A stretch of DNA of 64,000 bases from Mactra quadrangularis. Taxonomy: Eukaryota > Mollusca > Bivalvia > Venerida > Mactridae. Each line of letters opens with the position of its first letter. The first letter of the stretch is position 1. The position numbers and the translations under genes were made by a program. This document shows positions 6,448 through 62,300 of this stretch, piece after piece. The notes below the pieces were generated by a model, which saw only the letters and a program-made list of their open reading frames with translations, was not told the DNA's origin and ran no database searches. The DNA lies in contig CM046303.1 of assembly GCA_025267735.1 (NCBI GenBank), positions 50,361,403-50,425,402 on the forward strand, given 5' to 3'.

Positions 6448-6846
6448 CAGTCTGATTAAAACCAGATCTAAAAGATTTTCGCTCGCTTACTCGCTAATTT
6501 AGATCTGGCCCTTTCCATTCGAAGGTCACGTTCAGGCGACCTTTTCTCATCATATTATTCATGACGAAATTGTTATAATACGTAACTTGTTTACATCGTC
6601 TACGTCACGCAATTTGAAATGAGCCGCCCAATCGCAGACTGTGAATATTACCGCGGTTAAATTAGCAAGCAAAACTTGGTCTAAAAATAGAAATTACGAA
6701 ATCAAAATGTGATTAATAGTGTTTTCGTCTAGATGAATGCTACGCATTGATTGGTCGACACAAAGTTCGCCTCGACGTGACCTCTCACAGAGAAAGTACA
6801 GATCCTGTACGACATCGGTCTACAGGATATGTGTTTACGGAGATTG
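6448..6846 (+). mobile_element. MULE-like MITE, copy 1 (399 bp)
   Basis: The element starts CAGTCTGATTAAAACC and ends CGGAGATTG, so the outer 6 bp form an inverted pair (CAATCT/AGATTG in the other copies). A perfect 9-bp target-site duplication CTGACCATA flanks it at 6439-6447 and 6847-6855. Near the left end a stem is formed by CCAGATCTAAA and TTTAGATCTGG around a loop rich in CGCTCGC. Near the right end AGATCCTGTA pairs with TACAGGATA. It is closely similar along its length to 21302-21693 and, at both ends, to 52701-52943. No transposase ORF is present, so it is non-autonomous. The 9-bp duplication points to the Mutator (MULE) superfamily, which is inference. Confidence 0.85.
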
Positions 6847-7814: not shown

Positions 7815-8092
7815 ATTGAGTACCGGAATCCCTGGCGCAGTTGAGAGGTACACAAAGATTTCAAATCTAGATTTTCGAAGGGGGCACAGGATCTAATCAA
7901 ATCCGGTGATGGTATACCCTAACATGAAAAAAAAGGAACAAAATGCATATTTTACTAAAAAAAGAGGTAAAAGGAGAAGTTACCGGAATTGAGGAATAGG
8001 TGAGTATGGGATAGAGACAAGGGTCAATGAAAGCTAAGTTAGATGATCTGGTTGTCGTAAGATTACCCTTATTGTGTTTACACGGCGTTAAC
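7815..8092 (+). mobile_element. SINE family A, diverged copy
   Basis: The head has a decayed tRNA-like start (CTGGCGCAGTTGAGAGGTA resembles the box A of the 42.5-kb copy). The body keeps 'GGTGAGTATGGGATAGAGAC', 'GGTCAATGAAAGCTAAGTTAG' and the terminal 'ACACGGCGTTAAC', in the same order as the copies at 12299-12586 and 42484-42779. It lacks a clear target-site duplication and is the oldest-looking of the three. It lies about 190 bp outside the left end of the foldback element. Confidence 0.75.
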
Positions 8093-8275
8093 ATCTATAA
8101 ACAATTATGTCATGATTTTAACTAGTTGGGTTAATTCTTCACATGTATTGTCTTTAATACTATCCCGTTTATTTAAAATAAGTCAACATCCTCAGCCTGG
8201 GAAATGATACTAATTCTTAATCAGATCTGAAAAGTTCTCCCCGAAAAAAAAATGTGAAAACGTCACAGTAATGTA

Positions 8276-8284
8276 ACATATCTC
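8276..8284. repeat. Left 9-bp target-site duplication of the foldback element
   Basis: ACATATCTC directly abuts the left terminus AGGTCTGTG and is repeated perfectly at 16829-16837, directly outside the right terminus. A 9-bp duplication is characteristic of Mutator-like elements and Drosophila Foldback elements. Confidence 0.9.
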
Positions 8285-8480
8285 AGGTCTGTGAAGTTAG
8301 CTATCTATTGTCTATTCTCTATTCAAAAGTCTATTCGCACAATAGACAGCTATGTATTGAGAAATCTATTCATTCAGAAATCTATTCGCATTTACTGTAT
8401 ACATAGGCATAGGTAAGTTCAAAAATCTGTACAAAAATCTGTTCACAAAATGCCGAAAAGACAGCTGTCTAATCGGAAAT
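8285..8480 (+). repeat. Left terminal inverted repeat, non-tandem outer part
   Basis: This segment runs from AGGTCTGTGAAGTTAGC through the landmark 'TGTATACATAGGCATAGGT' to 'TGCCGAAAAGACAGCTG'. It is almost identical to the reverse complement of 15125-15320 and more diverged from the reverse complement of 16640-16828. Scattered 'TCTATTC' words already occur in it, so the tandem array may have grown from the terminus itself. Confidence 0.88.
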
Positions 8481-11400
8481 CTATTCAGAAGTCTATTCGA
8501 AAAAAGTCACTAGTGCAATCAGACATATTTAAAAGTCTTTTCATAGAAAACATAAATAGACAAATGTCCATTCAAAAGTCTATTCCGAAGTCTATTTGAA
8601 AAAAGCCAGTAATGCAATCAAACAGATTTAAATGTATTTTCGTGGAATACGTAAAGATGCAAATGTCCATTCAAATGTCTATTCCGAAGTCTATTCGCAA
8701 ATTTATGTATATGCATTCAAAATGAGGGTGAAGTCTTTTATAGAATTTCGAATAGAGAGCTGTCCATTTAAATGTCTATTCAGAAGTCTATTCGCAAAAT
8801 CTGGTAAATGCTTTCAGAATGAGTCAGAAGTCTATTATGCAGTAGCGAATACACAGCTATCCATTCAAAAGTCTGTTCAGAAGTTAATTTGCTAAATCAT
8901 ATATATGCAATTAGAATGCGTCTGAAGTCTTTAATTAAGTTGCGAATAGATATATGTCGATTCAAAAGTCTATTCAGAAGTCTATTTGCAATATAATGTA
9001 TAAGCAAGGACGGAAGTCCATTCAGAAGTATATTCGAAAAAAGCCTGTAATGCAATCAAACAGATATCCATTCAAAAGTCTTTTCAAAAGTCTATTCGAA
9101 AAATCATATATAGGCATAAAGAATGTGTCTGTAATCTATTTTAAAGTTGTAAATAGACAGATGTCCATTGAAAGATTTATTCAGAAGTCTATTCGCAAAA
9201 TCTGGTGAATGTATTCAGAATGAGCCAGAAGTCTATTATAGGTTTTTGAATAGAGAGCTGTCCATTCAAAAGTCTATTCAGAAGTCTTTTCGCAAAAATC
9301 ATACATATGCAATATGAATGTGTCTGCAGACTGTTATAAAGTTGCAAATAGACAGATGTCCATTCAAATGTCTATTCAGAAGTCTATTCGCAAAAAAATC
9401 TGGTAAATGAGTCCATAATGATCCAGAAGTCTATTTTAGATTTTCGAATAGAGAGCTGTCCATTCAAAAGTCTATTCAGAAGTCTTTTCGCAAAAATCAT
9501 ATATATGCATTATGAATGTGTCTGTAGACTGTTATAGAGTAGCGAATAGACAGCTGTCCATTCAAAAGTCTATTCAGAAGTCTTTTCGCAAAAAATCATA
9601 TAAATGCATTATGAATGTGTCTGTAGACTGTTATAAAGTTGCAAATGGACAGATGTCCATTCAAAAATCTTTTCAGAAGTCTTTTCGCAAAAATCATATA
9701 TATGCATTATGAATGTGTCTGTAGACTGTTATAAAGTTGCAAATAGACAGATGTCCATTCAAAAGTCTATTCAGAAGTCTTTTCGCAAAAATCATATATA
9801 TGCATTATTAATGTGTCTGTAGACTGTTATAAAGTTGCAAATAGACAGATGTCCATTCAAAAGTCTATTCAGAAGTCTATTAACAAAATCTGGTAAATGC
9901 GTCCATAATGATCCAAGAGTCTTTTATAGATTTTCGAATAGAGAGCTGTCCATTCAAAAGTCTATTCAGAAGTCTTTTCGCAAAAATCATATATATGCAT
10001 TATGAATGTGTCTGTAGACTGTTATAAAGTTGAAAATAGACAGATGTCCATTCAAAAGTCTATTCAGAAGTCTTTTCGCAAAAAATCATATAAATGCATT
10101 ATGAATGTGTCTGTAGACTGTTATAAAGTTGCAAATGGACAGATGTCCATTCAAAAATCTTTTCAGAAGTCTTTTCGCAAAAATCATATATATGCATTAT
10201 GAATGTGTCTGTAGACTGTTATAAAGTTGCAAATAGACAGATGTCCATTCAAAAGTCTATTCAGAAGTCTTTTCGCGAAAATCATAAATATGGATTATGA
10301 ATGTGTCTGTAGACTGTTATAAAGTTGCAAATAGACAGATGTCCATTCAAAAGTCTATTCAGAAGTCTATTCGCAAAATCTGGTAAATGCGTCCATAATG
10401 ATCCAGAAGTCTATTATAGATTTTCGAATAGAGAGATGTCCATTCAAAAGTCTTTTCAGAAGTCTTTTCGCAAAAATCATTTTTATGCATTATGAATGTG
10501 TCTGTAGACTGTTATAAAGTTGCAAATAGACAGATGTACATTCAAAAGTCTATTCAGAAGTCTTTTCGCAAAAATCATATATATGCATTTTGAATGTGTC
10601 TGTAGACTGTTATAAAGTTGCAAATAGACAGATGTCCATTCAAAAGTCTATTCAGAAGTCTATTCACAAAATCTGGTAAATGCGTCCATAATGATCCAGA
10701 AGTCTATTATAGATTTTCGAATAGAGAGCTGTCCATTCAAAAGTCTTTTCAGAAGTCTTTTCGCAAAATTCAAATATATGCATTATGAATGTGTCTGTAG
10801 ACTGTTATAAAGTTGCAAATAGACAGATGTCCATTCAAAAGTCTATTCAGAAGTCTTTTCGCAAAAATCATATATATGCATTATTAATGTGTCTGTAGAC
10901 TGTTATAAAGTTGCAAATAGACAGATGTCCATTCAAAAGTCTATTCAGAAGTCTATTAACAAAATCTGGTAAATGCGTCCATAATGATCCAGAAGTCTAT
11001 TATAGATTTTCGAATAGAGAGCTGTCCATCCAAAAGTCTATTCAGAAGTCTTTTCGCAAAAATCATATATATGCATTATGAATGTGTCTGTAGACTGTTA
11101 TAAAGTTGCAAATAGACAGATGTCCATTCAAAAGTCTATTCAGAAATCTTTTCGCAAAAATCATATATATGCATTATGAATGTGTCTGTAGACTGTTATA
11201 AAGTTGCAAATAGACAGATGTCCATTCAAAAGTCTATTCAGAAGTCTATTCGCAAAATCTGGTAAATGCGTCCATAATGATCCAGAAGTCTATTATAGAT
11301 TTTCGGATAGACAGCTGTCCATTCAAAAGTCTATTCAGAAGTCTTTTCGCAAAATCAAATATATGCATTATGAATGTGTCTGTAGACTGTTATAAAGTTA

Positions 11401-11870
11401 CAAATAGACAGATGTCCATTCAAAAGTCTATTCAGAAGTCTATTCACAAAATCTGGTAAATGCGTCCATAATGATCCAGTAGTTTATTATAGATTTTCGA
11501 ATAGAGAGCTGTCTATTCAAAAGACTTTTCGGAAGTCTATTCGTAACATCATATTAGTATATGCTTTAAGAATTTGTCTGAGGTCTTTTATAAAGTAGCG
11601 AATAGACAGATGTTCTTTCAAAAGTCTATTCAGAAGTCTATCCACAAAATCTGGTAAATGCGTTCAGAATGTGTCAGAAGTCTAATTTAGAGTTTCGAAT
11701 AGAGAACTGTTCATTCAAAGTCTATTCAGAAGTTTATTTGCAAATTATTGTAATGCATTTAGGATGCGTCAGACATTTATTATAGAGTAGCGAATAGACA
11801 GCTGTCCATTGAAATGTCTTTTCAGAAGTCTATTCGCAAAACTATATTTATGCATTCAGAATGTGTCAGA
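8480..11870 (+). repeat. Left-arm tandem array, ~98-bp monomers in higher-order repeats
   Basis: Monomers share a core in which a 12-bp unit (ATTCAAAAGTCT, ATTCAGAAGTCT, ATTCGCAAA…) is repeated about three times. Two monomer types alternate: one with 'TGTGTCTGTAGACTGTTATA', the other with 'GCGTCCATAATGATCC'. The second type recurs at about 9421, 9911, 10401, 10694, 10987, 11280 and 11474, giving spacings of 490, 490, 293, 293, 293 and 194 bp, that is 5, 5, 3, 3, 3 and 2 monomers of ~98 bp. Similarity is highest in the centre (9.3-11.4 kb), as expected from recent unequal exchange, and lower at the flanks. Open frames here are by-products of the 12-bp sub-repeat. Confidence 0.9.
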
Positions 11871-11891
11871 TGAAATTGTGATAGACCTGCC

Positions 11892-12158
11892 ATGTCTACT
11901 GAAGTTTGCGTGGTTTTGCCTGAACTAAGTAAGTTTTTTAACTCTCGTAAACATAAATGAATCTCCCGAATGTTTCTGCAATTTTAGATGAAGATCGAAT
12001 TTGCCTTTTCATATCGTCGATTTCTTGCAGATTCTGTAAACCAAGTCGAGCCGGTAAAGCCTGGTTCAAACAAGATTACTGGAACCGTTGATTACACAAG
12101 TGCAATTGCAAATTCGGTAACCAGTGCTGGTTCTATTCGAGGACGCGCCATTGATTGA
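11892..12158 (+). CDS. Possible two-exon mini-gene or captured exon pair in the foldback spacer
   Basis: A putative first exon (11892-11928) begins with ATG in good context (CCTGCCATG) and runs 12 codons plus one base to a consensus donor, A|GTAAGT. After 102 bp comes a pyrimidine-rich acceptor, TTTCTTGCAG, at 12021-12030. The second exon (12031-12158) continues in the same phase for 41 codons to TGA at 12156-12158. The predicted product is 54 residues, starting MSTEVCVVLPEL and ending AGSIRGRAID. The second exon is visibly richer in G+C than its surroundings and reads like a real protein. I recognise no domain. It could be a host gene fragment captured by the element, a short accessory ORF of the element, or chance. 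An upstream in-frame stop lies at 11871-11873. Splice phase match and composition are the only evidence. Confidence 0.4.
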
Positions 12159-12298
12159 GACATGCTAATATTTCGAAGCTTGTAGGCAGAAAAACCTTTG
12201 AATTTCATATTAAATCGTAAACAAATTGTTATTATCCACAAGAAAAATAAGCGCCAAAACAAAACTACTAAGTCACCAATTTACATTTAAGCGATAAA

Positions 12299-12586
12299 TT
12301 TATAAATTTATTGGAGTTAACGCCGTATCAACACAATTTAGGTCATTTCACGGCGTCTAGCGCACCTAACCTAGCTCTCCTGGACCATTGTCTATAACCA
12401 GTACTCACCTACCCTTCCACAAGGCCGGAAACTTCTCCATATTATCTAATCAATGGAGGAAAATCGACATTATTGTCAAATTTTCATTGAAGGGTATGAC
12501 CTCCCCGGGTGGGATTCGAACCCGCACCCCCTCGGGCACGAGTATCCAAATCCCGGCGCGCTACCAACTGCGCTATCGACCCGGGT
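12299..12586 (-). mobile_element. SINE family A, copy inserted in the foldback spacer
   Basis: On the minus strand the tRNA-like head reads CGGGTCGATAGCGCAGTTGG (box A) and GGGTTCGAATCCC (box B). It is followed by the SINE body (…TTGACAATAATGTCG…, …GGTGAGTACTGG…, …AAGCTAGGTTAGGTGCGCT…) and the terminal 'ACGGCGTTAAC'. A 13-bp target-site duplication with one mismatch, TTTAAG(C/T)GATAAA, lies at 12286-12298 and 12587-12599. It is the best preserved head of the three family-A copies. Because it sits between the two arms, it inserted after the foldback element's spacer existed. It is a SINE head, not a free tRNA gene. Confidence 0.88.
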
Positions 12587-12599
12587 TTTAAGTGATAAA

Positions 12600-13080
12600 G
12601 CCTGTTTAAATGATTATTTTTGTTTTATAAGAAACACAATTTTACACCATTTTGTTAATTTTTTTGACGGTGCTACAGCGTGACGTCAATCTTGGTGTTT
12701 TCGCACAGGTTCGTGCTTGTAGTATATTGTATAATGTAAATGTATTCATAACCGAAAGGAAAAAGGTAGACTAAATCAATTAGAAGAATTTATCTCATGC
12801 CAGTAGTTGTCTCTGAAAGTCCGTTGGACTTTATTTTAAAACAAAATCAGCTACCGAAAGAAGACTAACTACCAGAAGAAAAATAGAAGTATTGCTTTAA
12901 ATAGAAAAAAAATTAGACCTGAGTGCTTCAAAGAGCATGTCAATTCACTAACCCAGAAAATTATTCCGACACATTAAAAATGCATATGAATGATTTGGCA
13001 TATAAAATTTCTGATAAATAATTTGAAAATGTTATTTTAACACTTTACAAAAAGTAACTTTATTAAAAGACTTTTGCTAC
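12600..13080. other. Foldback spacer, right part, no recognised content
   Basis: This is single-copy-looking A+T-rich DNA between the SINE and the start of the inverted right arm. No ORF, tRNA or inverted repeat could be supported. Confidence 0.5.
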
Positions 13081-15320
13081 ATACTGAATAAAAGCTACTG
13101 TTTGCGAACAGACTTCAGAATTGGCATATGAATGGGTAGCTGTCTAATCGCAATCCTTTCATATACTTCTGACACAATCTACAAGCATTTACTTGATTTT
13201 GCAAAAAGACCTCTGAATAGACATATGAATGGACAGCTGTCTATTCGCAACTCTAAAATAAACATGTGACACATTCGAAATGCATAATAAGATTTTGCGA
13301 ATAGACTTCTGAATAGACATTTAAATGGACAGCTGTCTATTCGCAACTCTATAATGGACTTCTGACACATCCTTAATGCATATAAAAGATTTTGCGAATA
13401 GACTTCTGAATAGACATTTGAATGGACAGCTGTCTATTCGCCACTTTATAATAGACTTGTGACACATTCTAAATGCATAAAAACGATTTTGCGAAAAGAC
13501 TTCTGAATAGTCTTTTGAATGAACATCTGTCTATTTGCAACTTTATAACAGTCTAAAGACACATTCATAATGCATATATTTGATTTTGCGAAAAGACTTC
13601 TGAATAGACTTTTGAATGGACAGCTCTCTATTCGAAAATCTATAATAGACTTCTGGATCATTATGGACGCATTTACCAGAATTTGCGAATAGACTTCTGA
13701 ATAGACTTTTGAATGGACATCTGTCCATTTGCAACTTTATAACAGTCTACAGACACAATTATTATGCATATATATGATTTTTGCGAAAAGACTTCTGAAT
13801 AGACTTTTGAATGGACATCTGTCCATTTGCAACTTTATAACAGTCTACAGACACATTCATAATGCATATATATGATTTTTACGAAAAGACTTCAGAAAAG
13901 ACTTTTGAATGGACATCTGTCCATTTGCAACTTTATAACAGTCTACAGACACATTCATAATGCATATATATGATTTTTGCGAAAAGACTTCTGAATAGAC
14001 TTTTGAATAGACATCTGTCTATTTGCAACTTTATTACAGTCTACAGACACATTCATAATGCATATATATGATTTTTGCGAAAAGACTTCTGAATAGACTT
14101 TTGAATGGACATCTGTCTATTTGCAACTTTATGACAGTCTACAGACACATTCATAATGTATATATTTGATTTTGCGAATAAACTTCTGAAAAGACTTTTG
14201 AATGGACAGCTCTCTTTTGGAAACTCTATAATAGACTTCTAACACATTCTGAACGCATTTACCGATTTTTTCGAATAGACTTCTGAATAAACTTTGAATG
14301 GACATCTTTCTTTTCGCTACTTTATATCAGAATTCAGCCACATTCTAAATGCATATGCATATGATGTTGCGAATAGACTTCTGAATAGACATTTGAATGG
14401 ACAGCAGTGTATTCGCTACTGTTTGTAAGTTCTGACTCATTCTGAACGCATTTTACAAATTTTGCGAATAGACTTCTGAATAGACTTTTGAATGGACAGC
14501 TCTCTATTCGAACTCTATAATTAAATAGACTTCTGAATAGACATTTAAATGGACATCTGTCTATTTGCAATTTTTAAATAGACTACAGACACATTCTTTA
14601 AGCATATATATGATTTTGCGAATAGACTTCTGAATAAACTTTTGAATGGACAGCTCTCTATTTGTAAATCTAAAATAGACTTCTGACTCATTCCAATCGC
14701 ATTCACCAGATTTTCAAATAGACTTTTGAATAGACATTTGAATGGATATCTGTCAATTCCAAACTTAATAATAGACTTTAGACACAGTCTTAAAGCACAT
14801 ATATGATTTTGTGAATAGATATCCGAATAGACTTTTGAATGGACATTTGTCCCTGGCATTTTGGGAATAGACATCTTGCTCATTCAGATTGCATCACTAT
14901 GTTTTTGCGAATAAACTTCTGAATAGACTTTTGAATGGTCTTTTGTCTCTTTGCGTATTCCACGAGAAGACTTTTAAATCTGTTTGATTGCATTACTGGC
15001 TTTTTTCGAAAAGACTTCGGAATAGACTTTTGAATGGACATTTGTCTATTTATGTATTCTATGAAAAGACCTTTAAATATGTTTTATTGCACTAGTGACT
15101 TTTTTCGAATAGACTTCTGAATAGATTTCCGAATAGACAGCTGTCTTTTCGGCATTTTGTGAACAGATTTTTGTACAGATTTTTTAACTTACCTATGCCT
15201 ATGTATACAGTAAATGCGAATAGATTTCTGAATGAATAGATTTCTCAATACATAGCTGTCTATTGTGCGAATAGACTTTTGAATAGAGAATAGACAATAG
15301 ATAGCTAACTTCACAGACCT
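13080..15320 (-). repeat. Right-arm tandem array with internal terminus
   Basis: These are the same ~98-bp monomers as the left arm in reverse orientation (core 'AGACTTCTGAATAGACTTTTG'). Only one copy of the 'GGATCATTATGGACGC' monomer type (about 13656) is seen here, against seven in the left arm, so the arms expanded independently. The array ends at 15320 with a complete terminus (…AACTTCACAGACCT) that is almost identical to the left end of the element. After it, array sequence resumes immediately (AATTCTGAATGC) with no target-site duplication. Confidence 0.85.
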
Positions 15321-16828
15321 AATTCTGAATGCATATACATGATTTTGCGAATAGACTTCTGAATAGACTTCTGAATAGACATTTGAATGGACATTTGTCT
15401 ATTCGCAACTTTATAATACACTTCAGACACATTCTTAATAATTTTGCGTATAGACTTCTAAATAGACTTTTGAATGGACAGCTCTCTATTCGAAACTCTA
15501 TAAACGATATCAAACTCATTCTGCAGGCATATACATGATTTTGCGAATAGACTTCTGAATAGACATTTGAATGGACATCTGTCTATTTGCAACTTTACAA
15601 TAGCCTACAGACACATTCTTAATGCATATATATGATTTTGCGAATAAACTTCTGAATAGACTTTTGAATGGACAGCTCTCTATTCGAAACTCTATAATAG
15701 ACTTCTGCCTCATTCTGAACGCATTTACCGATTTTTTCGAATAGACTTTTGAATAGACTTTGAATGGACATCTTTCTATTCGCTACTTTAAAATAGACGT
15801 CAGACACATTCTAAATGCGTATTTGCATATGATGTTGCGAATAGACTTCTGAATAGACATTTGAATGGACAGCTGTGTATGTGCTACTGTTTGTTAGTTC
15901 TGACTTATTCTGAACGCATTCACCAAATTTTGCGAATAGATTTCTGAATAGACTTTTGAATGGACAGCTCTCTATTCGAACTCTATAATAGACTTCTGAC
16001 CCATTCTGGACGCATTCACCAGATTTTGCGAATAGACTTCTGAATAGACATTTAAATGGACATCTGTCTATTTGCAACTTTAAAATAGACTACAGACAAA
16101 TTCTTTATGCATATATATGATTTTGCGAATAGACTTCTGAATAGACTTTTGAATGGACAGCTGTCTATTTGAAAATCTATAATAGAATTCTGACTCATTC
16201 CGAATGCATTCACCAGATATTGCAAATAGTCTTTTGAATAGACATTTGAATGGATATCTATCAATCCCCAACTTAATAATAGACTTCAGACACAGTCTTA
16301 AGGCACATATATGATTTTGCGAATAGATATCCGAAAAGACATTTGAATGGACATTTGTCCCTGGATTTTTGGGAATAGACAACTTGATCATTAAGATTTC
16401 ATTACTATGTTTTTGCGAATAAACTTCTGAATAGACTTTTGAAAAGACATTTGTCTCTTTGCGTATTCCACGAAAAGACTTTTAAATCTGTTTGATTGCA
16501 TTACTGGTTTTTTTCGAATAGACTTCGGAATAGACTTTTGAATGGACATTTGTCTATTTATGTATTCTATGAAAAGACTTTTAAATATGTTTTATTGCAC
16601 TAGTGATTTTTTTCGAATAGACTTCTGAATAGATTTCCGAATAGACAGATGTCTTTTCGGCATTTTGTGTACAGATTTTTGTACAGATATTTTAACTTTC
16701 CTATATCAATGTATACAGTAAATGCGAATAGATTTCTGCATGAATAGATTTCTCAATACATAGCTGTCCATTGAGCGAATAGACTTTTGAATAGAGAATA
16801 GACAATAGATCGCTAACTTCACAGACCT
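15321..16828 (-). repeat. Duplicated outer portion of the right arm, with outer terminus
   Basis: This 1508-bp stretch repeats the distal part of the preceding arm. For example 14335-15320 matches 15808-16828 in order, including 'GCATATGATGTTGCGAATAG', the variant 'TTTGTCCCTGG' spacer and the terminal block. Its terminus carries private changes (ATAGATCGCTAAC, TCCTATATCAATGTATACAG) that neither the left end nor the 15320 terminus has, yet it is this outer terminus that is flanked by the target-site duplication. Confidence 0.8.
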
Positions 16829-16837
16829 ACATATCTC
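16829..16837. repeat. Right 9-bp target-site duplication of the foldback element
   Basis: ACATATCTC abuts the outer right terminus …CACAGACCT and matches 8276-8284 perfectly. Confidence 0.9.
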
Positions 16838-21301: not shown

Positions 21302-21693
21302 CAATCTGATAAAAATCCGATCTAAAATTTTCCGCTCGCCTACTCGCTAATTTAGATCCGGCCTTTTTCAAACGAAGGTCACGTTCAGGTGACCTTTTCT
21401 CATCATAATATTCATGACAAAATTGTTATGATACGTAATTTGTTTACATCGCTTACGCCACGCAATTTGAAATGAGCCGCCCAACCGAAGACTGTGAATA
21501 ATACCGCTGTTAAATTAGCATGCAAACATTGGTCTAAAAATAGAAATTACGAAATCAAAATGTGATTAATAGTGTTTAGATAAAAGCTAAGCATTGATTG
21601 GTCGACACAAAGTTCATCTCGACGTGACCTTCCACGGAGACAGTAGAGATTCTGTACGACAATGCTCTACAGGATATCTGTTTACGGAGATTG
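21302..21693 (+). mobile_element. MULE-like MITE, copy 2 (392 bp)
   Basis: Termini are CAATCTGATAAAAATCC and CGGAGATTG. A perfect 9-bp target-site duplication ATGTCATAT lies at 21293-21301 and 21694-21702. It is full length relative to the 6.4-kb copy and contains the same left stem (AGATC…GATC) and right stem, plus the internal 'GACACAAAGTTCATCTCGAC' block. No coding capacity. The inserted copy moved between strands of otherwise unrelated A+T-rich DNA. Confidence 0.85.
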
Positions 21694-27836: not shown

Positions 27837-28075
27837 TTGCCGCGGCCGTGGCGTAGTGGTTAGCATGTCTGACTTCGAATCCGGAGATCGCGGGTTCGAA
27901 ACCCGGTCGCGGCAGGTCATACCCTATACATGAGTTGTCGGCCTCGTGGTAGGGTAAGTTAGTACTGGTGATAGATAAGTGTCCAGGAAACCTATAGTAG
28001 GAAGAGCTGGCCGTCGTGTATATTACCTATATATGTGTTGAATGCGACGTTAAAAAACCAAAAAACCAAACCAAC
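27837..28075 (+). mobile_element. SINE family B, copy 1
   Basis: A tRNA-like head starts GCCGCGGCCGTGGCGTAGTGG (box A region) and contains GGTTCGAAACCC (box B). The anticodon-loop position reads CTTCGAA, consistent with a tRNA-Arg (TCG) ancestor, which is inference. The body contains 'GTAGGGTAAGTTAGTACTGG' and 'GGAAACCTATAGTAGG', and ends 'TGCGACGTTAAAAAACC'. A perfect 13-bp target-site duplication CATATAATAATAG flanks it at 27824-27836 and 28076-28088. It lies inside duplication copy 2 and is absent from copy 1. Not a free tRNA gene. Confidence 0.9.
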
Positions 28076-42483: not shown

Positions 42484-42779
42484 ACCCGGGTCGATAGCGC
42501 AGTTGGTAGCGCGCCGGAATTTGGTATCTCGTGTCCCAAAGGGGGTACGAGTTCGAATCCTACCCGGGGATGTTATACCCTTCCACGAAAATTTGACTAT
42601 AATGTCAAATTTCCTCCATTGATTAGATAATATGGAGAAGTTTCTGGCTTTGTTGAAGGGTAGGTGAGTACTGGTTATAGATAAGGGTTCAGGAAAGCTA
42701 AGTTAGGTGCGCTGGACGCCGTAAAATGACATAAATTGTGTTGACACGGCGTTAAACCCAGTAAAAAATAAAAATAAAT
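42484..42779 (+). mobile_element. SINE family A, plus-strand copy
   Basis: The head CCCGGGTCGATAGCGCAGTTGG with GAGTTCGAATCCTAC (box B) is followed by the body 'CCTCCATTGATTAGATAATA', 'GGTGAGTACTGGTTATAGAT', 'GGAAAGCTAAGTTAGGTGCG' and the end TTGACACGGCGTTAAACCC, with an A-rich tail of AAAAATAAAAATAAA. Head, body and end match the reverse complement of 12299-12586 closely. No clean target-site duplication was found. Confidence 0.88.
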
Positions 42780-58308: not shown

Positions 58309-59820
58309 TGGCTCTAAACACACAGACTTATTAAATTTCATGAATTATGATATTGAGTCAGTTTCTTAATAATATTAAACACGTCAATAAGAACCGAACC
58401 GTTGAGCCAATACAGCGGTTTAAAATTAGCCGTTTTGGCGGACGAACAGCGACAGCACAAATATTTCCTATTTCTCTGGATTTTGTAAGATCGATAGCAA
58501 CCAACTTTTTCCAATTAAAATTGTAAGCGTTCATTGAACTAGCTATTGTAGGTTCCCTGCATTATAGTTTTTCGTTTTTAATTACCGTACTTAATTATAT
58601 AGTAAATTTCAAAAGTGATTACTTAGTTCAAACTTTATCTTACTCGAACAAGAGATATTTGCCAAGAACGATTCGTGTAGTTACTGAACTATCTCAAGTA
58701 TGTTCTATATCAATTATTTTCTTCAAATGTTATAGGTATTTTTGTATAAAGAAAATCTTTTTTAATCCGTTCTTTATACTTGTGAACCCATCCTTGATTA
58801 AGTATTCCTGACATCGGGATAAAGTTCATTACACATTAACTTACATAATGAATAGTTTATTCAGAATAAAAAAGCATTGCACGTAGAATACAGCATAGCA
58901 ATGACAAAAACTTAAGCAATTTAACAATTTACATTTCATAATGACAAATTAGCGTGATTAGAAATAGTACAATATTGCAATAAAAATGTTTATGGAAATA
59001 TGTTGATTTATATTTTAATTATATCATGAGAAGCCACAATTATTCACGGATAGCACAAAAAGAGCGAACTCTTATTTCTATTGTGGTCCCAATAGATGAG
59101 CGTGGTTAACATAGACAGGTTACTTGAATCGAAAGAAAACATAAAGAAAATTACTATATTATAAGCTTACTAAACAATATCACAAAGTTTTGGAGTTAAA
59201 TGGTTATTAATAGTAATTGCTATCATAAGTTAGGAGGAAAAATTAAATAAAAATATCACAGGTTAAATATAATCACATATTTAATAACAATGAAAACTGG
59301 TACTTAAAATCATTATTCAGTATGTAGTATATGTATAAATAAATCACAGACTTCGATATTAGGTTTGTGTATTTCTTTAAAATTACGTTGCTTTTCTTGA
59401 AACGACTTTTATAAACAAAAAATAATTTGTTGAGCATGTTTCATGTCTTGCTTTTAGTATTCAATTCTGTATAAGAGACCACCCTTGCGTATGTCAAGTA
59501 ACAGTAAAGAAAGACAACTCGGCTGAACTAACGTCACATTTGGAACAACCTCGGCGATCATCTACGAAGATATACCTCGGAAATCAGACGTAGTAGGAAT
59601 ACAACCAGGTTATTAGGTCCGGCGACTGTTATTTTCATTTCAACATTCAATAATGATTTTGTTACACGCTTTATCACATCATTTCATCACTACAATGTCA
59701 CACACGTCGTATTTCTGTGTAGTTCAGACTATTTACCACAGAAACCAAATTTCTATAGGTCTACTTTTTCACCTTATGATATCCGAGGTTTATCTGCGTA
59801 GAGCCGAGGTAGTTCCGAAT
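58309..59820. other. Upstream region of the 59.9-kb gene, no supported exon
   Basis: A+T-rich DNA with no recognised element. From ~59,500 the G+C content rises toward the gene, as expected near a promoter, but no TATA or initiator can be assigned. Confidence 0.4.
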
Positions 59821-59824
59821 GCTA

Positions 59825-59898
59825 ACGTCACTTACGTTATATTGTTACGTCATGACGTCGGTCCTAACGTCGGTTGCTAACGTCAAATCTGAACGTCA
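59825..59898 (+). promoter_or_regulatory. Cluster of ACGTC/ACGTCA motifs upstream of the two-exon gene
   Basis: ACGTCA occurs at 59825-59830, 59847-59852, 59880-59885 and 59893-59898, with TGACGTC at 59853-59859 and AACGTC at 59866-59871. CGTCA/TGACG is the half-site bound by CREB/ATF-type bZIP factors. Six occurrences in 74 bp, ending 28 bp before the ATG at 59926, are far above expectation in A+T-rich DNA. Whether the cluster is promoter, 5' UTR or an old repeat is not settled. Confidence 0.45.
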
Positions 59899-59925
59899 AA
59901 TAGATACAAAAAGTTACATTAGAAG

Positions 59926-61254
59926 ATGCATAGCGAATTGTGCGATACAAGAAATAAAATTATTTGGAAATGCGGAGATGCTCCAAGGGGAGAATGGGCT
60001 CCTATGGTGAAAGTTGTTGTAGAGGAGAAACGCTTACCAACAATGTTACCTTTAATCCAGCCTTTACACAGAAATTTAACAACAAGTGAAAGCTGTCACA
60101 ACATGCTTCAAAATTTCATAAGATCAATGGCGCAAGAGAATGAACTTGGTGAGTTTAATTACATCGTACGATTTATATTTAGAATTATTATATTATTTTA
60201 AACGGGCTAAAATAAATCAATATAGAAATGAATACTTATATGATTTATATGAATTTAATTTTAAATGTCCAAAATTGCACATAACTACCTTAGAAGTTTT
60301 TAGATAGATATATTCATTGTGTCCATTACTATGCAAATTTTAAACTTGAACATAGAAATAATGGATTTAAAACATAAACATAAACACAGCAAGGTCCCAT
60401 TTCTTACTAACACAACTCAAGTAGAAGTGTTGCATTATTAAGACTTGACCATTTGGTACATCATAAAGAAAATATTTGTTTTTTCTCGACTGTCGAAGTT
60501 TGAAAATTTTCACGGGACTGAACATGTTTTCTTTCCGAACTTACACCAAGCTATTGACATATCACACTTGTTAGGCACCGAACAGTTTGTACACACACAT
60601 TTACTGTGGAAGGTTTATCATAACTGGTTGATTTTTAAAAAAAAATTGTTGGGTTTAACGCCGTAGCAACAAATTGTAAAGGTCATATATCGGCGATCAT
60701 TCAACCTACTTACTCCTCCTGGAAAGGCTAAATCTCTGGATTTAGCTGTTAACCAACTACTAGGCGCATACTTTCGTCAGTGACTGACAACTGCCCTACA
60801 TTATTAAGAATCATTGGTAAGAGGGAGAATGGCCGTAAAAAAATTCATGACCAAACTCCTCGAAACTATGCCCCGCCTTGGAATGGAACCAACGACCCCT
60901 AATCAGTAGACTTGTGTGCTATCAACTGAGGTAGCCGAGCGGCTCATAACTGGTTGATGAAATGCAACTACACATATATAATTACTAGCACATGACATAC
61001 ATTCGTTTATTGTTAAAATAAAATGTAACTAAACCCATATTTTATTTATTTTAGATATGAAACAAGCAAATGTACTTACGTTTGAAGACATCAAGATTGC
61101 TGGTGGTGATTCTATTTCTGAGAGTGATAACACAGAGTGTATAGACGATGAAAATGAGGAAGAAAAAGTTACTATCAAGAAATCATTTAAATCAAGATTG
61201 GTTGAATGTTTGAGAAAGTTATGTTGTATAAAAGGAGAGAGAAAAGATGAATGA
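59926..61254 (+). CDS. Two-exon gene, protein of unknown function (140 codons)
   Basis: Exon 1 (59926-60148) starts with ATG directly after an in-frame stop (TAG at 59920-59922) and encodes 74 codons plus one base up to a donor CTTG|GTGAGT. Exon 2 (61055-61254) follows TTTATTTTAG and continues in phase: G plus AT makes one Asp codon, then MKQANVLTFEDIKIAGG and on to TGA. The product has an N-terminal part with a C/W-containing segment (IIWKCGDAPRGEWAPMVKV), a polar middle, an acidic run (ECIDDENEEEK) and a basic, Cys-rich end (SFKSRLVECLRKLCCIKGER) whose paired Cys could be lipidated. No signal peptide or membrane span. I recognise no family. Further 5' exons are possible. The 906-bp intron carries a SINE. 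Matching splice phase, composition and poly(A) signal support a real gene. Confidence 0.7.
60633..60943 (-). mobile_element. SINE family C, in the intron of the two-exon gene
   Basis: The minus-strand head GCCGCTCGGCTACCTCAGTTG with GGTTCCATTCC (box B) is followed by a ~200-bp body and the end TTGCTACGGCGTTAAACCC with an A/T-rich tail. A perfect 15-bp target-site duplication TCATAACTGGTTGAT lies at 60618-60632 and 60944-60958. It lies antisense to the host gene, well away from both splice sites, so it is likely tolerated. Confidence 0.9.
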
Positions 61255-61984: not shown

Positions 61985-62300
61985 AAAACAATGTAGTACA
62001 ATACGATACGATACGATAAAATACGATACGGTACAGTACGGTACGATATGAGACGATATGATACGATACAATATGAACATTTACGGTACGGCACAGTATG
62101 GTACGGTACGATATGATTCGTTTCGATACGATACGATGCGATATAATACAGTACGGTACGGCACGGTACGGTACGGTACGTTACGTTGCAATTGCAAAAC
62201 AATATGATAAGATGCGGTGCGATGTTACACGATTCGATACGAAACGATACGGCACGATACGATACGATACGATATGATACGATACCACATCGCGCATCAC
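61985..62300. repeat. Degenerate pentanucleotide satellite (TACGA/TACGG)n
   Basis: About 300 bp of TACGA, TACGG, TATGA and related 5-mers in near-continuous phase, with interruptions. A 163-codon minus-strand frame across it (SYRIV/PYRTV-type repeats) exists only because the 5-mer array has no stops in that frame; it is not a gene. The array is dense in CG dinucleotides. Confidence 0.9.

Follow-up and report, generated by a model that had tools for sequence, protein, structure and literature searches.

The stretch of DNA analysed here, hereafter the window, comprises 64,000 nucleotides of the bivalve Mactra quadrangularis (assembly GCA_025267735.1, contig CM046303.1, positions 50,361,403 to 50,425,402 of the forward strand). 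Between window positions 8285 and 16828 it carries an element of 8,544 bp, delimited by an exact-match check on both strands. With a probability of about 0.9, it is a DNA transposon of the foldback type in which no transposase can be recognised and which is moved by the enzyme of another element, probably a Mutator-like one.

Architecture of the element

The element begins with the 17-base terminus AGGTCTGTGAAGTTAGC (8285-8301, + strand) and ends with the reverse complement of the same sequence (16812-16828, - strand). Each of these outer termini abuts a copy of ACATATCTC (8276-8284 and 16829-16837), an exact 9-bp target-site duplication that is found at these two places only in the whole window, on either strand. 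A left arm of 3,583 bp (8285-11867, + strand) and a right arm of 3,728 bp (13101-16828, - strand) are built of the same tandem monomers, mainly units of 97-99 bp, in opposed orientation, and they enclose a middle, or spacer, of 1,233 bp (11868-13100). The original prediction, an earlier note made from the letters of the window alone, had described a perfect 9-bp duplication with inverted termini and opposed arms of ~98-bp monomers; both were borne out, the former to the exact base. Long inverted terminal arms of tandem repeats, as expected of a foldback element, are present in the window.

The right arm contains, in addition, a complete internal terminus (15304-15320, - strand), absent from the original prediction, which is followed by a distal arm segment (15321-16828, - strand) that repeats positions 13855-15320 with 87.5% identity and ends in the outer terminus. 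The two outer ends are not identical, with 93.0% identity between left and right over 416 bp, and the left end is 95.4% identical to the internal terminus over 416 bp.

Copy number and target-site duplications

Genome-wide searches were run on the host assembly, which comprises 979 Mb in 447 contigs. The exact 17-base terminus was found at 786 places (387 forward and 399 reverse), and the reversed control pattern at none. Nearly all of these exact termini appear to represent one family, since only one place in the genome departs from A at position 19. At two ends per copy, the 786 termini correspond to an estimated 390 or so copies, some copies being three-ended and some termini single; given an average of 8.4 kb for 30 pairs, the total extent of the family is estimated at about 3.3 Mb, or 0.34% of the assembly. 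A search with the left 516 bp gave 2081 candidate places, and the 40 that were scored all matched over the full length at 99-100%. Hits in the genome lie on contigs C1-C19 and C294, and 18 of contigs C1-C19 have lengths of 31-71 Mb, in agreement with the 19 chromosomes of many bivalves. Two IMG/VR contigs also matched the 17-mer, with an alignment of only 17-19 bases that is attributed to chance. The array pattern was not found in IMG/VR contigs and phage records gave no match.

With regard to the target-site duplications, 30 simple +/- pairs of termini, chosen by the exact 17-mer alone, were taken in listing order from 100 listed of the 786 places, with 18 bases fetched per end. Sixty of the first 78 places were used and 18 were dropped as single, widely separated or triple sets, the last 22 of the 100 being left out of the duplication scoring. 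Perfect duplications of 9 bp were present in 22 pairs and perfect duplications of 8 bp in five; one pair had 6 bp and two had none. All 870 off-diagonal (mismatched) pairings served as a control, in which one pairing reached 9 bp (two pairs share their left flank) and no other exceeded 6 bp. Chance is excluded because of these two comparisons, 786 termini against none for the control pattern, and 27 true pairs out of 30 having 8 or 9 bp, as opposed to one of 870 mismatched pairings. The sequence of the duplications varies between sites, so that the family shows the independent insertions with target-site duplications that are expected of foldback elements; the terminus is not confined to this locus, and other copies have duplications of their own, two of the points on which the original prediction could have failed. 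Of the termini in this set, those at C1:34441344 and C1:31098385 lie 3.3 Mb apart and have the same 12-base left flank; the former is one end of a short pair that lacks a duplication and may be a rearranged copy.

Longer stretches were fetched for 19 other copies (L033-L052), which are the best matches to the left end of the window element and thus a biased sample. The inverted arrangement recurs in these 19 copies. In nine of them the far end lies beyond the fetched stretch, so that the duplication was left unscored and extra internal termini could be missed. The 11 copies with both outer ends, window included, comprise nine with a perfect 9-bp duplication, one with a perfect 8-bp duplication and one with an 8-of-9 match. 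Arm lengths range from 2,408 to 5,441 bp in ten complete copies, window included, and we infer that these differences reflect unequal exchange between monomers. Furthermore, non-array sequence was seen by inspection just outside the terminus at 29 of 30 loci around the best terminus matches.

An identical twin and an empty site

A twin of the window element, at C11:50039681-50048224, sits about 330 kb away and shows no difference from it over 8,544 positions. The duplication that flanks the twin is a different one (ATTGAACCG), and the flanks of the two copies have no detectable similarity in 1.2 kb on each side. Because the two copies are identical while their flanks are unrelated and their duplications differ, the simplest reading, and a likely one, is that the whole 8,544-bp unit, internal terminus included, moved recently, in agreement with the earlier proposal that a unit of ~8.5 kb moves as a whole. 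Gene conversion may be an alternative homogeniser of the pair. With regard to their origin, either copy may derive from the other, or both may derive from a third one.

An empty site was found for the L046 copy, which lies inside a dispersed repeat. Once one copy of the duplication is removed, its joined flanks align across the joint with L029 (93%) and with window positions 6563-6798 (92%) and 21416-21647 (89.5%). The 8-bp target of L046 occurs once in each uninterrupted repeat, as GAATAATA in L029 and in 21416-21647, and as GAATATTA in 6563-6798. The window thus happens to carry, at 6563-6798 and 21416-21647, two uninterrupted copies of the dispersed repeat that serve as empty sites for an insertion elsewhere.

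Internal termini and the possible growth of the arms

The internal terminus is a recurrent feature of the family. It is present in the window element and in at least seven of the 19 fetched copies, where the joint is always next to GCATTCAGAATT or GCATTCTGAATT, and three further sets with a terminus spacing of 1,507-1,508 bp are found among the 100 places listed. In the L047/L048 copy (C11:62202333-62213234), which is 10.9 kb long and has a perfect 9-bp duplication at its outer ends, both arms contain internal termini, the one on the left lying next to GCATTATGAATG.

At the joints, the internal terminus is kept complete to its first base and stands directly against array sequence. In keeping with this exact junction, the internal terminus likely originated by nested insertion of a copy into the arm of another, after which recombination between the similar arms deleted the remainder, or else through a duplication equally precise at the end. 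Alternatively, a simple duplication within the arm, or an ancestral arm structure, could account for the internal terminus without any nested insertion; we give this reading a little less than even odds. It would agree with the distal arm segment being collinear with the inner segment, and with both types of internal joint lying, by inspection, at the same monomer register. The terminal region is also monomer-like from about base 25 inward, and over bases 1-60 its similarity to the monomer is significant by virtue of this inner part (0 of 1000 shuffles equally good). However, the first 22 bases of the terminus are not significantly monomer-like (411 of 1000 shuffles equally good), which means that homology alone cannot place the joint, and the completeness of the terminus to its first base, next to array, counts against this alternative.

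A bolder scheme can also be proposed, although we regard it as rather doubtful. A bivalve foldback family that is jumping now would grow by telescoping, in that ends buried in the arms would offer nested choices of end (7.0 or 8.5 kb) and the composite would be inherited as a new mobile unit, with a short interspersed element (SINE) carrying RNA polymerase III boxes as a ready source of transcription between satellite arms.

The spacer

The original prediction had anticipated copies with different spacers, an expectation that was little borne out, and had suggested a search for a copy with a Mutator-like element (MULE) transposase between such termini. The spacers of 20 copies compared in full are 97-100% alike, with lengths of 1,223-1,233 bp, and their shared differences divide them into two groups. 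A genome search with the spacer gave 400 candidates; 40 of these were scored, each at no less than 99%. The one exception is a short copy of which part was examined, L113 (C2:24839888-24843100), 3.2 kb long: it is flanked by a perfect duplication, and the DNA near its centre is non-array sequence of another kind, which includes a hairpin-like stretch.

Within the spacer lies the fossil of a tRNA-derived SINE (12307-12586, - strand), which has A-box and B-box motifs and is 88% identical over 282 bp to window positions 42484-42765. Its central part resembles the MetaSINE core domain. Further relatives of this SINE are found in the window at 7973-8101, 27933-28053 and 60642-60695, the first of which lies a short way to the left of the element.

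As for coding capacity, 16 open reading frames of the spacer and one of the arm gave no Pfam match above the cut-off (the best E values, 0.074 and 0.078, were both below it), and the single spacer frame tried in a PDB search gave no match. No MULE-type DDE transposase was found in the 16 spacer frames, no NOF-like gene was seen in the spacer frames scanned, and a Rehavkus-type protein (PHD-finger transposase) was absent from the scanned frames of this copy. One + strand frame of the spacer has splice-like edges, and in one of 20 copies the first putative exon lacks 4 bases. Judging from the sequence, the spacer is treated here as non-coding, a gene split by introns being conceivable.

The mobilising enzyme

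A near-fixed duplication length at precise ends is, in DNA transposons generally, the mark of a transposase that cuts the two strands in a staggered fashion and joins the ends. The duplications of 8 or 9 bp in 27 of the 30 pairs lie within the range of 8-11 bp given for MULEs (PMC6446971). A Mutator-like enzyme is the best candidate, and probably the right one by analogy with known elements, since foldbacks with 8-10-bp duplications have been assigned to Mutator or proposed to belong to it. MULE domains are present in the genome, with 43 matches among 74 candidates scored.

The enzyme of another element would cut and paste the copies in trans, recognising the 17-bp terminus, where it is predicted to bind at the inverted ends, and sites within the monomers might aid this recognition. 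A role of this kind for tandem sites in long arms, as a help to transposase binding, has been proposed for Galileo and Tetris (PMC4079207). Cuts staggered by 8-9 bp would then give rise to the target duplication. Between transpositions, arm length would drift by unequal exchange between monomers, and a copy inserted into the arm of another, with recombination between like arms deleting the rest, would leave an internal terminus that is subsequently inherited.

Several observations weigh against this account. An empty site was found for one of nine copies when joined flanks were compared with the sequence fetched; the joined flanks of the window element match the filled site only, which is single-copy, and no empty allele was found. 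The two pairs without a duplication (2.7 and 3.4 kb) are both among the three shortest, and one pair has a duplication of 6 bp only. Moreover, arm-like sequence was found at none of 19 MULE-domain loci (of the 43) at a distance of 3.5 kb to one side. These loci had open frames of 370-1204 amino acids, with C1:18982712 (377 amino acids) omitted, and one side and one distance were considered. They scored 17-26 for arm sequence; background draws, of which there were 60, scored no more than 25, and 30 draws taken from the arm of one other copy all scored 68 or above. This one-sided spot test therefore did not recover the MULE transposase that had been looked for within such termini. By inspection, none of seven MULE matches on C1-C3 is near a terminus among the 100 listed. 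Finally, the assignment to a superfamily is drawn from duplication length, and Merlin elements share it, with duplications of 8-9 bp.

This last point bears on the alternative that the foldback element is moved by a non-Mutator transposase, for example one of Merlin or of the P type, as in Galileo, which we consider unlikely. The 8-9-bp duplications of Merlin and the lack of a MULE gene inside such arms in the spot test are compatible with it, and several superfamilies are said to have arrived at the foldback shape, one example being Galileo with its P transposase (PMC3169594). Conversely, among the foldbacks with 8-10-bp duplications in the literature, Tm1 has been assigned to Mutator (PMC3169594) and Tetris proposed to belong to it (PMC4079207), the commonest duplication length in the present family is 9 bp (22 of 30), and MULE domains do exist in this genome.

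A rolling-circle element of the Helentron/HINE type is very improbable. In the Pacific oyster, satellite-like arrays are carried by non-autonomous Helentron elements (PMC7492417), and HINEs have subterminal inverted repeats and a short array between two modules, in contrast to the kilobase inverted arms found here. The 8-9-bp duplications of 27 of the 30 pairs also argue against such an origin. Helitron-type insertion is not known to leave a duplication of 8-9 bp. A segmental inverted duplication of a satellite array with a coincidental 9-bp repeat, for which the satellite-like arms and the two pairs without a duplication might be invoked, is refuted to near certainty by hundreds of dispersed identical termini with independent duplications, the perfect twin and the empty site.

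Relation to known elements

The foldback architecture named in the original prediction stands, whereas the association with flies made there was too narrow. Foldbacks are known from fly, rye, Arabidopsis, sea urchin and Chironomus (PMC4079207), and Tm1 is a Mutator/Foldback family of root-knot nematodes with mostly 9-bp duplications (PMC3169594). Like the present family, Tm1 has composite inverted repeats with internal repeated motifs and 8-10-bp duplications, and is mostly non-autonomous. However, the repeats of Tm1 are of ~14 bp, as opposed to the ~98-bp monomers that make up arms of 2.4-5.4 kb in the ten complete copies; it is described as an inactive family whose copies all differ from one another, whereas a 100% identical pair is found here; and one Tm1 copy bears a transposase, the ends of the family being asymmetric and 7 bp long (PMC3169594). 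No histone-hairpin motif of the Tm1-HH type was found within the element.

Tetris, from Drosophila virilis, has long inverted arms of tandem repeats in varying number (unit of ~220 bp), 8-10-bp duplications and no coding capacity, and its autonomous partner was not found in the work reported (PMC4079207). In these respects it is similar to the present family. It differs in its arms of up to 1,735 bp, shorter than those described here, and in a variable middle and three complete copies, as opposed to the constant middle of the 20 copies compared and the 786 termini (PMC4079207). Within the MULEs, Rehavkus shares the 9-bp duplication, a minisatellite near an end and inverted repeats, the latter being 26-400 bp long; it has one open reading frame and hosts in Arthropoda and Annelida, and it is marked by a transposase with a PHD finger and by the position of its minisatellite, ahead of the 3' repeat. 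In MULE-Cg, the mollusc group listed in the same source, the inverted repeats measure 48 and 296 bp (PMC6446971).

The likeness to Drosophila Foldback (FB/FB-NOF) is one of architecture: those elements combine long opposed arms of tandem repeats with a 9-bp duplication.

The M. quadrangularis element is a further member of the foldback class, with arms longer than the figures given for Tetris and with a constant middle. The searches of the literature, which left most subscription papers and Repbase outside their scope, returned no foldback element from a mollusc by title or by the start of the abstract, in keeping with the original prediction, whose author knew of no described molluscan counterpart. 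A survey of bivalve transposons has 39 MULE consensus sequences, and the word foldback does not occur in its main text. As far as these searches reached, this would be the first foldback described from a mollusc.

Both chromosome inversions and the origin of satellite DNA have been linked with foldback-like elements in flies (PMC4079207). Of the two families compared most closely, Tm1 is described as inactive and Tetris is known from three complete copies. The present family, in which 786 termini, two identical copies and a composite sublineage that recurs are found, provides a test of how foldback arms grow, and it also allows one to test the seeding of satellites from transposons and which enzyme moves such elements.

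Other features of the window

Exon-like stretches lie on the + strand at window positions 59500-61254, the last of which ends in a stop near 61254. Two pieces of this region had no Pfam match above the cut-off and the last exon had no homologue in one protein search. Downstream of it, positions 61997-62285 hold an array of the pentamer TACGA.

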